Source: Erysipelotrichaceae bacterium (GTDB lineage Bacteria; Bacillota_I; Bacilli_A; Erysipelotrichales; Erysipelotrichaceae). Taken from it: a stretch of 38,990 nucleotides of DNA. Numbering within the stretch: the stretch's first letter is position 1; every line of letters starts with the position of its first letter. Under the pieces are notes generated by a model. The model did not search any database. It saw only the letters and a program-made list of their open reading frames with translations, and was not told the origin of the DNA. The position numbers were made by a program, and so were the translations under genes. Positions 15,773-21,553 of the stretch are shown here, in pieces. The stretch spans positions 1 to 38,990 of the forward strand of contig JAUNEN010000023.1 of NCBI GenBank assembly GCA_030525525.1, in the 5' to 3' direction.

Positions 15773-16961
15773 TGAGGAACTCCCTGGCAAGACCGCCTTC
15801 TGCGGTTTCCCTGAGTTCGATCGGTATCTGCATACCGGTCTGTTTCATTGTTTCGACAACCATATCAAATGAAACAAGATGCTTTCTGACTTTGCTCATA
15901 TATCTTGAAAGTGTTGCTGCATCAAGGGCTCTGAGAACCCCCATGGCATTGCGCTCGATACAGGGAATCATGACATATCCCATAACCGGATCGCATGTCA
16001 AGCCAAGATTATGCTCCATGGCGATTTCAGCCGCATATTCGATCTGATCGATATCCTGACCCATGAGATATGCCGCGCTTGCCGCTGCCATTGAAACAGC
16101 TGTTCCGACTTCCGCCTGACAGCCGCCGACTGCACCGGAAATGGTGGCGTTGCTTTTGATGAGATTGCCGAAAACGCCGCCGATTGCAAGTGCATTGCAT
16201 AAACGCTGTCTGTTCATATTTCTGTCTTTGGCGCAATAATACACAAGCGCTGTCATAACCCCGCATGCACCAAGCGTCGGAGCGGTGACGCAGGTATGGC
16301 CGGCTGCGTTTTCTTCACCTGCTGCAAATGCATAGGCCATGAGTCGTAAATCATTGTTTTCAAGAAGCGACTCGGTGGATTGTGCATAAAGCTGATGGGC
16401 TGTTCTGTTCATATGAAGACGGCCCGGCAGGATGCCGTCCGTTGTAATGCCTCTGTCAACGCATTCAATCATGACATCGATGATGTGATTCAGATAAGGT
16501 CTCAGATCCGGCTCATGCGAATAGACATAATCCAGAAGACTGATGTGCTGATCTTTCATCAGCTGTCTGATTTCACGGTAGCTTTTCTCATGATAGACTT
16601 CATCATTCCAGTCAAGCGGCATTTCCTTGATCTGAATCGAACCGCCGCCGATGGAAAAGACAGTCCATCGGTGCTGCATTTCATGATTTTCATTGAATGA
16701 CGTCAGATAGAAACCGTTGGGAAAATCTTCCTCCCAGTCCAGGGAGAATTTGACATTGCACTCTCCGGGCAGGGATTCCATGATGATTCTGTCTGTATAA
16801 TGTCCTTTTCCGGTCAATGAAAGCGAGCCGAAAAGCTCAGCTTCATAATACGGGAATTCACCGAAAGTCTCAGTGAAAAGACGGCAGGCGCGCTCGGGTG
16901 CGAGTGTATGGGAACTGCTCGGTCCCCTGCCTGCCTTGTAAAGTTCTTTAATAGCCTGCAT
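15762..16961 (-). CDS. sdaA: L-serine dehydratase, single-chain iron-sulfur type
   Basis: This 399-residue enzyme deaminates L-serine to pyruvate and ammonia with a [4Fe-4S] cluster. The N-terminal beta domain has 'GRGPSSSHTLAPERA' (11-25). The C-terminal alpha domain carries 'APTLGACGVMTALVYYC' (227-243) and three cluster cysteines, Cys281, Cys323 and Cys334. Their spacing of 42 and 11 equals that of E. coli SdaA. Many Bacillota split the enzyme into two subunits; here both are on one chain. The Shine-Dalgarno is poor, and the start lies 14 bases inside holA, suggesting translational coupling. Pyruvate produced could feed the acetate kinase route. Confidence 0.93.
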   Translation of the reverse strand: MQAIKELYKAGRGPSSSHTLAPERACRLFTETFGEFPYYEAELFGSLSLTGKGHYTDRIIMESLPGECNVKFSLDWEEDFPNGFYLTSFNENHEMQHRWTVFSIGGGSIQIKEMPLDWNDEVYHEKSYREIRQLMKDQHISLLDYVYSHEPDLRPYLNHIIDVMIECVDRGITTDGILPGRLHMNRTAHQLYAQSTESLLENNDLRLMAYAFAAGEENAAGHTCVTAPTLGACGVMTALVYYCAKDRNMNRQRLCNALAIGGVFGNLIKSNATISGAVGGCQAEVGTAVSMAAASAAYLMGQDIDQIEYAAEIAMEHNLGLTCDPVMGYVMIPCIERNAMGVLRALDAATLSRYMSKVRKHLVSFDMVVETMKQTGMQIPIELRETAEGGLAREFLNEN

Positions 16962-17976
16962 ATTGTTTTCCGTTTCTTAGTATGAATTGCTCGAATCCTT
17001 CTTTCGGATCGATCGTTCCTGATTTGATACCCTGATCAAGTTCTGCCAGCTCACATAAATAGGTCAGCAGTTTGTTTGAGGAGAGACTTCTTGTATTTTC
17101 CAGTCCCTTTTTGACGGCATAGGGCTTCATGTTCAGCCGCATGGCGATATCGGATTCGCTCATTCCTTTTTCATACAGCTTCCTGAGTGTATACATTGAG
17201 CGGATGCGGCTTGCCAGCATCATCATTAAGGATGTGTGATCAAAAGAAGCCTTCAGCATTTCGTTCATCGAGCGGATGGTACCGGCAAGATCACCGGCAA
17301 TAAACTGCTGGCTCATGTTGAAAACATTGACTTCAGGATTGAGGGAAACAAGCTCACGGACATCATTCAGATTGTATTCCCTTTCTCCATACAGCAGCAT
17401 CTTTTCGATTGCATTGTGCAGCAGCAGCGTATCGCAGTCCACTCTTGCCAGCAGTTCTCTTTTCGCATCCGGTCTCAGTGTCAGTTTATTCTTTTTCAGC
17501 TGCTCATCGCAATAGATCGCAAAATCGCGGTCATACATCTTTTTGTATGCCGTAATGACTGCGCCGTATTTCTCAATCAGTTTGTATTCTTTCTTGCGGC
17601 TGTCCGCATCAAAGCCATGGCAATAGAAAACCAGGGCAGTATCCGGATTGGGACGCTTGAGATACTGTTCAAGAACAGACATCCGTTTCTCACGCTCTGC
17701 TTCTTCTTTGTCTTCTTTCTTTTTTCCGCGGCTTCCTGTCTTTGCCGCAGCATTCAGAAAAAACGGATCGCGGATGATGACTGCTTTGCGGTCGCTTCCT
17801 TCAAACAGGGAAAATGTATCGCACTCCAGGATCGCCGTATCAATGCGGAAATTCTTCGCATCCGAAGCGTCAAAAACAACCGTATGATCCCTGTCGACAG
17901 AATTCTCCTTCAGGATCCGTTTCAATGCTTGTTCAAGGCGGTAAAGATCTTTGCCGCTCATCAGATATATACTCAT
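16948..17976 (-). CDS. holA: DNA polymerase III delta subunit (clamp loader)
   Basis: The 342-residue protein (from ATG at 17976, MSIYLMSGKDLYRLEQAL) is the delta subunit that opens the sliding clamp. The sequence shows the expected divergent AAA+ N-terminal domain, where 'YLMSGKDLYRLEQALKRI' replaces a true Walker A, the linker 'IIRDPFFLNAA', and the helical C-terminal part with 'LASRIRSMYTLRKLYEKGMSESDIAMRLNMKPYAVKKGLE'. A Lys/Glu-rich insertion 'SRGKKKEDKEEAEREKR' lies near residue 85. A GTG at 17997 overlaps the comEC stop in the form GTGA and is an alternative start, but has no Shine-Dalgarno. Either way it is coupled to comEC. Confidence 0.9.
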   Translation of the reverse strand: MSIYLMSGKDLYRLEQALKRILKENSVDRDHTVVFDASDAKNFRIDTAILECDTFSLFEGSDRKAVIIRDPFFLNAAAKTGSRGKKKEDKEEAEREKRMSVLEQYLKRPNPDTALVFYCHGFDADSRKKEYKLIEKYGAVITAYKKMYDRDFAIYCDEQLKKNKLTLRPDAKRELLARVDCDTLLLHNAIEKMLLYGEREYNLNDVRELVSLNPEVNVFNMSQQFIAGDLAGTIRSMNEMLKASFDHTSLMMMLASRIRSMYTLRKLYEKGMSESDIAMRLNMKPYAVKKGLENTRSLSSNKLLTYLCELAELDQGIKSGTIDPKEGFEQFILRNGKQYAGY

Positions 17977-17993
17977 GAGGGTATTATAGCACC

Positions 17994-19910
17994 TCACAAT
18001 AGTTCAAAGAAGAGAGCGGATGTCAGCAACAATCTCCAGGGACCGATGAAAACAATCGATATGTCGCCATGATCCTTTGTATCAAGATACGGAATATGCC
18101 GTTTTAACAGACGCTGAATGGTTTCCGGGGATGGATGATGATAAATCTGATAGGCACCGCTTGAAATGATTCCGGTTTTCGGTTTCAGGGTATCCAGAAA
18201 CAGATCGCATGATCCGGTCTTTGAGCCATGATGCGAGAGCTTGAGTACATCGCATCTGAGATTGCCGTATTTACGGACTGCTGTTTCTTCACTGATCTGA
18301 TCGGAATCGCCGCACATCACAAATGACAGTCCGCCTGCTTCAAAGCATAGCATCTGCGAACTCTGGTTCTTGTCTTCTGTTGAAAGTGAATTGATATCGT
18401 GAAAAGTGAAGAATTTTGTGATTGTTGTGCCTTCATGTTCCGTAATCACACGCTTCACATGAAAATCTTCAATGATTTCATTCATGCTGCCGCAGTGATC
18501 CGAATCCATATGGGTGATAAACAATGTATCGATTCGATTGATACCGCGTGCCTCAAGAGCTGCTTTTACACTGTTGTATTGTGAATTCTTACCGGTATCA
18601 ATCAGGATGTTTTCCTGATTCAAAGGAGCTCTGATGAGAATGCAGTCCCCCTGCCCGACATTGATAAATGCGATTTCTGCAAACGGATGAAACAGACCTG
18701 TACACATAAACAAAGCAAACAGTGCACATGCAATCTTTGCAAAATGTCTGCTTCTGTAGAAACTGCATACAAGACAGACAAATACCGGAAGTCCAAAACC
18801 GAGTATTGAGCCGCAGAGTGTCAGATGATCCGTGATCAGAGTGACATCCATCAGAAAACGGATCAGATCAATCCATGCGAAAGAAGGAACCAAAACAATC
18901 ACAAGACTGTAAAACCAGAGGATTCCTGTCAGCCTGATGAGATACGGATAGAAGAATGACTGAAACAGATTGACATGGTGCATAAACAGCGACTGGGCAA
19001 GGAATACGCATGCATAGCGTATATATGGTTTTTCATCAGATGAAAATGAAGAAACAGAAAAAAAGAACGGATATATAAATGCCGGACTCAGGATCTGTTT
19101 TCTGAAGATCAGAATCATCAGAATGCACCATATACCGGTTTTCTCATTTGATTTTAATTCTGAAAGACTGATGATACGGCGCATCATAGAACTGATGAGA
19201 ATCAGCCGCACACCATAGAACAAAACAAGCAGAAGACTGCAGATGATCATGATCTTCTTCACTGTCTTCTTTTCAAATAGAAATACGAGAAGGCTTTCGA
19301 TCACAAGCAGGATTCCGGCAAATGAAAATCCGTTCTGAATCAGAAAGCTGCCCTCAATCATGTCTCTGTCGGTGCAGTTTAACAGCAGTCTGTATACAAA
19401 TGCTTTGACTTCCGCATCTTCAATTTCTTCGATTTTCTTCTGCAGCAGTCTGCGTGGGGTATCTGCTTCTGAGATGACTTTGATCTCATCGCCGGCATAT
19501 TGTTTTTCAATTCCTCTTCGTTTTAAATCAGCCGCAAAATCATAGCGGAAAAATCCTTTGGCAGATTCGATTGTTTCAAACGGGGAATCGATGCTGATGA
19601 GTGCATCGTATGGAAGCGGACCGTTTGAATAGACAAGAAATCTGCTTCGTTTGTTCCGGGCAATTGAATAATTCTGATGGACTTCAATGATTCTTGCTTC
19701 TTTGATGGATTCATCAAACCGGTAAGGCTGAATCAGAAGGAATAAACATAACGGCATCAGTATCAATCCGGCAGATCCTGATGCACGCTTTGCAAAGAGA
19801 AAATAAACAGAACAGAGTGCGCACAAAGGAAATGCATCTTTGAGCATCAGAAAACAGAACAGCAGAAACGAAGCAAGCAGGATGTTTTCTCTGAAGAGCT
19901 TCAAAGGCAT
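17994..19910 (-). CDS. comEC: ComEC/Rec2 competence DNA channel protein
   Basis: This 638-residue membrane protein forms the channel that takes single-stranded transforming DNA across the cytoplasmic membrane. N-terminal membrane segments (about 8-65) are followed by the soluble OB-like region (about 70-150). A central multi-spanning competence domain follows (about 190-410), and then a C-terminal metallo-beta-lactamase-like domain from 'AFINVGQGDCILIRAP' (414-429). That domain has 'ILIDTG' (435-440) and the metal motif 'THMDSDH' (466-472), so the nuclease-like site looks intact. It is shorter than typical ComEC (about 700-800). It overlaps comEA by 10 bases and holA follows directly. Confidence 0.93.
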   Translation of the reverse strand: MPLKLFRENILLASFLLFCFLMLKDAFPLCALCSVYFLFAKRASGSAGLILMPLCLFLLIQPYRFDESIKEARIIEVHQNYSIARNKRSRFLVYSNGPLPYDALISIDSPFETIESAKGFFRYDFAADLKRRGIEKQYAGDEIKVISEADTPRRLLQKKIEEIEDAEVKAFVYRLLLNCTDRDMIEGSFLIQNGFSFAGILLVIESLLVFLFEKKTVKKIMIICSLLLVLFYGVRLILISSMMRRIISLSELKSNEKTGIWCILMILIFRKQILSPAFIYPFFFSVSSFSSDEKPYIRYACVFLAQSLFMHHVNLFQSFFYPYLIRLTGILWFYSLVIVLVPSFAWIDLIRFLMDVTLITDHLTLCGSILGFGLPVFVCLVCSFYRSRHFAKIACALFALFMCTGLFHPFAEIAFINVGQGDCILIRAPLNQENILIDTGKNSQYNSVKAALEARGINRIDTLFITHMDSDHCGSMNEIIEDFHVKRVITEHEGTTITKFFTFHDINSLSTEDKNQSSQMLCFEAGGLSFVMCGDSDQISEETAVRKYGNLRCDVLKLSHHGSKTGSCDLFLDTLKPKTGIISSGAYQIYHHPSPETIQRLLKRHIPYLDTKDHGDISIVFIGPWRLLLTSALFFELL

Positions 19911-20377
19911 ATATCATCCCTGATTTTTTCAAACCGGCTCTCTCCGATTCCTTTGACACGCATCAGATCTTCAATTGACTGAAACAGTCCGTTTTCTTCC
20001 CGGAATGCAATGATGCGCTCGGCTGTGGAAGGTCCGATTCCTTTGAGTGTGCATAATTCTTCAATTCCGGCAGTATTGATGGAGATCCGGCTTTTCTCTT
20101 CTTCATTTTTCTTTTCGGGAACATAGATGACATCGTGATCCTTGAGAACAAGAGACGGATTGATTGCGGAAAGATCGCTTGCATCAGTGATCCCGGCTGC
20201 CTCAAGCGCATTTTCGACGGTCGAATACATTTGCAGATCATATTCTCCCTGATGTTCGACAGCACCTTTGACAATGACACTGATCTGATCCGACCTCATC
20301 GAATCAAATGAAAGAGGTTTGAGGTCAACAGACAGGCTGAGCAGAATGAGAATTAAAAAAACAGGCAGTTTTTTCAT
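19901..20377 (-). CDS. comEA: ComEA-type DNA receptor, SLBB plus helix-hairpin-helix
   Basis: The 158-residue protein binds incoming double-stranded DNA outside the membrane and passes it to ComEC. A signal anchor 'KKLPVFLILILLSLSVDL' is at 2-19, an SLBB-like domain ('ISVIVKGAVEHQGEYDLQ', about 32-87) follows, then a charged linker, then tandem helix-hairpin-helix motifs: 'ISINTAGIEELCTLKGIGPSTAERIIAFR' (98-126) and 'SIEDLMRVKGIGESRFEKIR' (134-153). This is the normal order for ComEA. AGGAGG precedes the ATG. The first codons and the ribosome site lie inside a terminator-shaped hairpin (separate entry), so expression may be conditional. Confidence 0.94.
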   Translation of the reverse strand: MKKLPVFLILILLSLSVDLKPLSFDSMRSDQISVIVKGAVEHQGEYDLQMYSTVENALEAAGITDASDLSAINPSLVLKDHDVIYVPEKKNEEEKSRISINTAGIEELCTLKGIGPSTAERIIAFREENGLFQSIEDLMRVKGIGESRFEKIRDDICL

Positions 20378-20398
20378 GGATCAAATCCTCCTGCCTGT
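20354..20398 (-). terminator. Terminator-shaped hairpin enclosing the comEA ribosome site and start codon
   Basis: On the minus strand ACAGGCAG (20398-20391) pairs perfectly with CTGCCTGT (20368-20361) and is followed at once by a T run of six more bases (20360-20355). The 22-base loop contains the GAGG of the Shine-Dalgarno and the ATG at 20377. The 3' arm and T run are codons 4 to 8 of comEA. It is the only terminator-like structure I see after greA. Confidence 0.6.
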
Positions 20399-20425
20399 AA
20401 TATTCAGCAAATTTCTGCAGTTTCC

Positions 20426-20893
20426 TCAATGAATGTCAATAATGATGACTTCATAGGGATCCTTGACTTCAACAAGACGTGTATCGCCTGCTCTGGAATT
20501 CATGATTGCCTGAGCGAGCGGTGTTTCGTTGGAAAGCTTGCCGTTGAGCGGATCTGCTTCGGTGGAACCGACGATTGTGTACTCAGCTTCTTCCTTTGTA
20601 TCAAGGAATTCGATTCTGACGGTTGAACCGATGGAAACGACTTTCTTGGAGCTCTTGGTCGGATCAATGATTTCGTAATGATTGAGCATTGATTCCAGTT
20701 CGGAGATTCTGGATTCAACACGTGCCTGTTTGTCACGGGCAGCGTCATAGTCAGCGTTTTCGGAAAGGTCACCGAGGGAACGTGCTTCAGCGAGTTCGCT
20801 CTTGACTTCTTCACGGACAACGTGGACCAGATTATTATATTCGTCTCTGAGTTTCTGCAGACCTTCTTCTGTTACATAGATTTTATCAGCCAT
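20426..20893 (-). CDS. greA: Transcription elongation factor GreA
   Basis: This 155-residue protein rescues backtracked RNA polymerase by stimulating transcript cleavage. The N-terminal coiled coil carries 'KIYVTEEGLQKLRDEYNNL' (4-22) and the acidic tip 'ARSLGDLSENADYDAARDKQ' (about 37-56), in which the Asp/Glu residues act in the polymerase's secondary channel. The C-terminal FKBP-like domain has 'VSIGSTVRIEFLD', 'YTIVGSTEADPLNGKLSNETPLAQAIM'. Length is standard. GGAGG lies before the ATG and a perfect -10 element lies upstream, so it may have its own promoter in addition to reading from udk. Confidence 0.97.
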   Translation of the reverse strand: MADKIYVTEEGLQKLRDEYNNLVHVVREEVKSELAEARSLGDLSENADYDAARDKQARVESRISELESMLNHYEIIDPTKSSKKVVSIGSTVRIEFLDTKEEAEYTIVGSTEADPLNGKLSNETPLAQAIMNSRAGDTRLVEVKDPYEVIIIDIH

Positions 20894-20919
20894 ATTGATA
20901 CCTCCAATCAGCGTTTTGT

Positions 20920-20925
20920 ATTATA
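20920..20925 (-). promoter_or_regulatory. Candidate -10 element of greA
   Basis: A perfect TATAAT (20925-20920) lies about 30 bases before the greA ATG, in the short gap after udk. No convincing -35 is seen at 16-18 bases, so this is only a candidate internal promoter. Confidence 0.35.
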
Positions 20926-20929
20926 GCAT

Positions 20930-21553
20930 TCAGCGGTTGATGATGCTACTGATTTTTGTTGTCAAAAGATCGATCGCGACGTGGTTTTCGCCGCCTTCGG
21001 GGATGATGATATCAGCGTAGCGCTTGCTCGGTTCAATGAATGAGTTGTGCATGACTCTGACGGTATTGACATACTGACTGATGACACCGTCCATGTCTCT
21101 TCCTCTTTCCTTGACGTCACGGCGAAGTCTTCTGATGAAGCGCACATCTGCATCCGTATCGACAAAGATCTTCATATCGAGAATGCTTCTGATCTTTTCA
21201 TCTTCAAGAACAAACAGTCCTTCCAGAATCAATACATCGCACGGGTAGCATGTTTCAGTGACTTCGCTTCTTGTATGATTCACAAAGTCATACGTCGGCT
21301 TCTCGATTTTTTCACCTGCGGAAAGCCGCTCAATATGCTCCAGAAGGAGATCATTGTCGAAAGCAAACGGATGATCGTAGTTTGTTTTGATTCTCTCCTC
21401 CATCGGCTTGTCTGACTGATCTTTGTAGTAGTCATCCTGACGGATGATCAGAACGGATTTCATGTCAGAGAAACGATCCTTCAGCTTTCTGGAAATTGAT
21501 GTTTTGCCGGATGCACTGCCGCCGGCGATTCCGATAATAATGGGCTTTGCCAT
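20930..21553 (-). CDS. udk: Uridine/cytidine kinase
   Basis: The 207-residue P-loop kinase phosphorylates uridine and cytidine in pyrimidine salvage. Walker A is 'GIAGGSASGKTSISRKL' (8-24). The family motifs 'IRQDDYYKDQSDKPMEER' (38-55), 'NYDHPFAFD' (58-66), the substrate site 'YDFVNHTRSEV' and 'LILEGLFVLEDEKIRSILDMKIFVD' follow, then 'RFIRRLRRDVKERGRDM', the lid. Length is normal. An AAAGGG site precedes the ATG. The order udk-greA after mltG is conserved in Bacillota. Confidence 0.97.
   Translation of the reverse strand: MAKPIIIGIAGGSASGKTSISRKLKDRFSDMKSVLIIRQDDYYKDQSDKPMEERIKTNYDHPFAFDNDLLLEHIERLSAGEKIEKPTYDFVNHTRSEVTETCYPCDVLILEGLFVLEDEKIRSILDMKIFVDTDADVRFIRRLRRDVKERGRDMDGVISQYVNTVRVMHNSFIEPSKRYADIIIPEGGENHVAIDLLTTKISSIINR

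Follow-up and report, generated by a model that had tools for sequence, protein, structure and literature searches.

Organization of the greA–comEA junction

The window analysed here, a 38,990-nucleotide stretch of DNA from an Erysipelotrichaceae bacterium (genome G000), carries greA, comEA, comEC and holA in this order on its minus strand (Table 1). From the greA stop codon TGA onwards this strand reads GGAAACTGCAGAAATTTGCTGAATATT, ACAGGCAG, GAGGATTTGATCCATGAAAAAA, CTGCCTGT and TTTTTTA. The arms ACAGGCAG and CTGCCTGT form a stem of 8 bp with no mismatch (20398–20361), five pairs being G–C, and a tract of six T lies directly 3′ of it, as in an intrinsic terminator. The 5′ arm includes part of the Shine–Dalgarno (SD) sequence of comEA and the loop holds the comEA ATG, as in hairpins of the T4 gene e type. 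The existence of this hairpin, noticed in a preliminary description of the region, is confirmed with one correction: the perfect 8-bp stem stands, but only six T are unpaired, the seventh being the last paired T of the stem. The same description had correctly read codons 4–8 of comEA (CTG CCT GTT TTT TTA) as Leu-Pro-Val-Phe-Leu, placed the ribosome site and ATG in or adjoining the loop, and recognized the terminator shape 3′ of greA overlapping this ribosome site.

Table 1. Features of the greA–holA region, with positions in the window
Feature	Position	Strand	Basis
greA, transcription elongation factor GreA, upstream housekeeping gene	20426..20893	minus	NCBIfam PRK00226.1-4, 184 bits, above cut-off
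Putative competence promoter: −35-like GGAAAC (20425–20420), −10-like TGAATA (20406–20401)	20401..20425	minus	block conservation, comGA match
5′ arm, ACAGGCAG	20391..20398	minus	G000 sequence, fold, covariation
Predicted transcription start (about ±2 nt), inside 5′ arm	20393	minus	pneumococcal ComX consensus spacing and folding by 5′ end
comEA Shine–Dalgarno AGGAGG, part in 5′ arm, remainder in loop	20387..20392	minus	sequence
Loop, GAGGATTTGATCCATGAAAAAA, 22 nt, with SD remainder and comEA ATG (20377–20375)	20369..20390	minus	sequence
3′ arm, CTGCCTGT, comEA codons 4–6	20361..20368	minus	sequence, covariation
U-tract, six T, comEA codons 6–8	20355..20360	minus	sequence
comEA, DNA receptor, hydrophobic N-terminal segment	19901..20377	minus	NCBIfam TIGR00426, 83 bits, above cut-off; TIGR01259, 89 bits, below cut-off; Pfam HHH_3
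comEC, DNA channel	17994..19910	minus	TIGR00361, 114 bits, below cut-off
Predicted holA extended −10 promoter, TGCTATAAT, 6 nt 5′ of ATG 17976	17983..17991	minus	TATAAT in G000 and relatives
holA, DNA polymerase III delta, likely start ATG 17976	16948..17976	minus	TIGR01128, 237 bits, above cut-off; start inferred from promoter and relatives

The folding-energy calculation proposed at the outset gave a borderline, not significant result for the single sequence (−14.4 kcal/mol against a shuffle mean of −9.97 kcal/mol; z = −1.70; 10 of 200 shuffles equally good); it is the comparison with relatives, and not this lone fold, that makes the hairpin convincing. The stock terminator scan does not report the hairpin because its 22-nt loop exceeds the 8-nt limit of the scan. 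From about 16.9 to 24.4 kb the scan lists no other terminator-like site on the minus strand, and greA thus has no alternative candidate terminator nearby. A loop of 22 nt is atypical; across the genus the loops mostly measure 13–25 nt, more than an efficient intrinsic terminator usually has, and this counts against a role in termination.

It had also been proposed that the hairpin gates a single chain comEA-comEC-holA-sdaA. This chain is broken, because holA has a conserved extended −10 element of its own before its ATG, from which a separate promoter is predicted. TATAAT, usually with a preceding TGN, was read from the sequences 6–11 nt 5′ of the holA start in G000 and in all 17 relatives with a located holA. 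The element was first spotted by eye and checked by pattern afterwards, the stricter pattern search finding it in 13 of those 17 relatives; in a sigma-A hexamer scan the region 5′ of holA did not outscore shuffles. No SD is seen in G000 around the conserved element TGNTATAAT and the start codon (17972–17991, minus strand; L312–L331), and the holA mRNA may be leaderless across the genus.

Conservation of the hairpin and exchange with separate terminators

All 70 genomes of the genus, many of them fragmented drafts, were searched and 64 full ComEA loci were taken. A hairpin is found at the same place with differing arms (ATAAGCAG/CTGCTTAT, GACAGGCAG/CTGCTTGTC and AAGACAGTCAG/CTGGCTGTCTT; further pairs are ATAAGTAG/CTACTTAT, ACAGTAAGTGG/CTACTTACTGT and AAATGAGCAG/CTGCTCATTT); three of the eight pairs are G–C in the consensus stem ATAAGCAG. 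Among 40 distinct sequences 97.2% of cells are paired, double changes occur at six of the eight pairs and none of 500 shuffles was as good; these counts are inflated by relatedness, which least affects the number of doubly changed pairs. Sliding the partner arm by 1–3 columns lowers pairing to 19–58%, and in genomes with unusual stems the pairing score of an arm is higher with its own partner than with the majority partner (22.3 versus 13.7 and 15.4 score units). RNAalifold recovers this helix and shows compensatory changes in eight of its nine pairs. The alignment of relatives, suggested in the preliminary description, has both arms covarying while the frame stays open. A start-spanning terminator was detected at 55 of 60 comEA starts of the genus, compared with 3 of 151 other gene starts used as controls.

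The coding sequence bears traces of the same pairing. Leu-5 is encoded by CTT in 46 of 48 genomes, compared with 46 of 197 later Leu codons (P = 2e-21), and residues 4–6 are Leu-Leu-Ile in 37 of 52 genomes with the hairpin and in none of the seven with a separate terminator. RNA pairing thus appears to mould both codons and residues at the ComEA N-terminus. A 24-nt sequence 96% identical to the region of the comEA start and U-tract also occurs in G012 (C88:2836–2859), a genome in which neither greA nor a full comEA was found; the match may be due to chance.

The distribution of the hairpin is linked to that of separate greA terminators. Where comEA lies directly 3′ of greA (58 loci), 51 loci have the hairpin only, five a separate terminator only, two a separate terminator with a remnant hairpin, and none has neither (Fisher P = 3e-4 for all 63 loci). 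The tree of the genus genomes requires at least two independent switches between the two states. Since the hairpin is lost or decayed wherever a separate terminator is present, termination of greA seems to be the selected role, and both attenuation and a purely translational role are disfavoured. The hairpin is probably the intrinsic terminator of greA. In G033 (L054) and G042 (L055), where some 900 nt separate greA from comEA, the overlapping stem is kept; the U-tract of G042 is poor.

In other genera of the family a start-spanning terminator was found at 17 of 29 greA–comEA junctions, with three more borderline, a threshold-based count that relies on rule-based start codons, of which a few may be incorrect. 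Several arms are of unrelated sequence and differ in position (AAAAAGTAAGGATTT/AAATCCTTACTTTTT in G080, TAAGGACTCGTTG/CAACGAGTTTTTA in G195, AAACTGATTTT/GAAATCAGTTT in G197); G226 and G213 have the arms AAGTACCGGAG/TTCCGGTACTT, and greA was not found just upstream. It is thus the arrangement that recurs and not one sequence. This recurrence may reflect repeated origin or drift of an old element, which these data do not separate; the T-rich codons of the hydrophobic N-terminus of ComEA are a natural U-tract. In the order's other family (f2) the members sampled have mostly separate terminators, and greA does not lie just upstream of comEA.

A putative competence promoter

The 27 nt separating the greA stop from the 5′ arm contain a putative promoter, GGAAAC-N13-TGAATA, which the preliminary description had missed. 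When 53 loci are anchored on the SD, conserved blocks appear at −34 to −30 (GGAAW) and at −12 to −9 (ATA); they are fixed relative to the SD and not to the greA stop, whose distance varies from 23 to 43 nt. The promoter was found through column conservation and a seeded model. De novo motif searches (two-block; either gene set) gave T-runs, the SD or the hairpin arms and no promoter, and a seeded test with control genes was therefore used. A matrix trained on comEA scored on average 9.06 upstream of comGA (38 loci) versus 3.39 at 106 control starts (MWU P = 8e-11), with 18 of the 38 comGA loci above the control 95th percentile; this comparison is conservative, since the controls include loci fetched by the pattern GGAAN{14,17}TGAATA. 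The motif is common to comEA and another late competence gene, as for SigH/ComX promoters, and in G000 the comGA copy reads GGAAAG-N13-TGAATA. The A-rich −10 region could be partly conserved as an A-tract paired to the U-tract. A scan of G000 for other com promoters with the same pattern gave 112 matches and was too unspecific. At three comGA loci (L120, L122 and L124) the preceding gene has a terminator (GATCATTC...GGAATGATC plus TTTTTTT) whose 3′ arm contains the −35-like GGAAT, a second terminator–promoter overlap at a competence gene.

In the pneumococcal ComX consensus, 7 nt separate CGAATA from the start downstream of it (PMC6560143). Applied to G000, this spacing puts the predicted start at 20393, inside the 5′ arm. 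In most loci the motif predicts a start 10–17 nt 5′ of the ATG, and the −10 to SD spacing places it inside or past the 5′ arm in nearly all genomes, the greA–comEA gap being held at about 36–56 nt. Competence transcripts would consequently lack the terminator, and the gate would be promoter choice rather than antitermination. Read-through RNA has a mean folding energy of −16.5 kcal/mol, which weakens to −5.1 kcal/mol when the RNA begins at the predicted starts. In G000 the RNA from the predicted start keeps a residual fold of −5.6 kcal/mol that still pairs part of the SD, whose unpaired probability is lower than in the full hairpin (0.22 versus 0.46). Release of the ribosome site is consequently a weaker inference than escape from the terminator, and for G000 folding supports only the latter.

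The factor reading the comEA promoter would be SigH/ComX-like. A candidate competence sigma factor, apparently a distant relative of SigH, is encoded at L141 (G000:C34:6930–7097); this 205-aa SigH-like protein is nearest to SigH models, far below their cut-offs. In L. sakei both comEA and comGA are under SigH control (PMC3364868). The promoters described here resemble SigH/ComX promoters in their CGAATA-like −10 and in their presence at comEA and comGA (PMC6560143, PMC3364868), but the −10 at comEA is looser (C/G-N-A/T-ATA), a GGAAW block occupies the −35 position and the candidate sigma factor is only distantly related to SigH. Our literature searches found no study of competence control in this bacterial group.

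Proposed roles of termination, masking and promoter choice

These observations suggest the following scenario. The intrinsic terminator of greA would have shifted onto the first part of comEA: the ribosome site of comEA occupies the loop and 5′ arm, while the 3′ arm and U-tract serve as codons 4–8 of the hydrophobic N-terminus. Read-through RNA from greA would have both arms: most polymerases would halt at the hairpin, and in RNA extending past it the ribosome site would be folded away. The competence promoter 5′ of the hairpin would start RNA inside the 5′ arm, without its outer part; such RNA could not form the terminator and would hold the ribosome site less tightly. Promoter choice would thereby set the RNA fold, and comEA–comEC would be expressed only with an active competence sigma factor. 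We consider it probable that a greA terminator lies across the comEA start and is bypassed by a competence promoter starting within its 5′ arm. The earlier expectation was that polymerase leaving greA would stop unless folding is prevented; active prevention is not needed if, as is probable, the promoter starts RNA inside the 5′ arm.

The hairpin could instead be a compact, unregulated greA terminator that overlaps comEA, with promoter overlap and SD masking devoid of a regulatory role. The trade-off with separate terminators marks termination as the selected part, T-rich hydrophobic codons provide a ready U-tract, and the masking of the SD disappears together with the hairpin. However, the −10 to SD spacing, which sets the start inside or past the arm in nearly all genomes, and the maintained junction gap argue against this explanation, which we regard as unlikely. 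A regulated attenuator, implied by the preliminary description, in which RNA from greA carries a hairpin toggled by a protein, a ribosome or a small molecule, would suit the proximity of comEA to greA in the same direction and the attenuator-like shape of the hairpin. It seems still less probable, as no alternative antiterminator arm was noticed, no riboswitch, T-box or leader RNA was matched in Rfam at E 1 in 19800–21000, seven genomes have a plain greA terminator instead, which would abolish attenuation, and a dedicated promoter is predicted downstream of greA. Although the SD and Leu codons make up part of both arms and the single fold is borderline, a chance origin of the hairpin from an extended SD together with leucine-rich initial codons is scarcely credible given the excess over control starts (55/60 versus 3/151), the compensatory changes, the CTT constraint and the terminator trade-off.

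A terminator bypassed by the position of the RNA start has partial precedents. In phage T4, gene e (lysozyme) and genes like it have long early RNAs whose folding covers the ribosome site, and the late promoters of gene e start past the 5′ arm, giving free RNA (PMC3014915). The comEA junction would be similar if its own promoter starts, as predicted, within or after the 5′ arm; read-through RNA would likewise mask the ribosome site. However, the T4 structure is described as a translation block only, whereas the comEA hairpin adds a U-tract, seems to be the terminator of the upstream gene and belongs to a bacterial competence gene. RNA structure reportedly also guards genes of IS10 (Davis, 1985) and IS200 (Beuzon, 1999) against impinging outside transcription; the shielding is alike, but there it protects transposases of mobile elements and here it would act at a fixed housekeeping–competence junction. 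The comEA case would thus join logic of the T4/IS10 type with a terminator, between two fixed chromosomal genes. A bifunctional terminator sequestering a ribosome site has been proposed, with no experimental demonstration by 2010 (PMC2965389). That terminator was an attenuator in the gene's own leader, unlike the comEA hairpin, which would end the transcript of a neighbour and inside which transcription from the promoter of comEA itself seems to begin.

Whether the same logic holds throughout the family is a more tentative matter. A family-wide dual lock on DNA uptake, in which the hairpin is at once housekeeping terminator and mask of the ribosome site, only a start by the competence sigma factor inside the hairpin escapes it, and RNA pairing dictates the first residues of the protein, has in our view slightly less than an even chance of being correct. 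If true, it would represent a conserved bacterial terminator that doubles as a translational lock and is bypassed by the position of the RNA start, a combination proposed in part in the work that called it undemonstrated in 2010 (PMC2965389). It would also provide a case in which N-terminal residues and their codons are dictated by an RNA signal, would yield a testable competence promoter for this bacterial group, and would explain the silence of competence genes packed among housekeeping genes.
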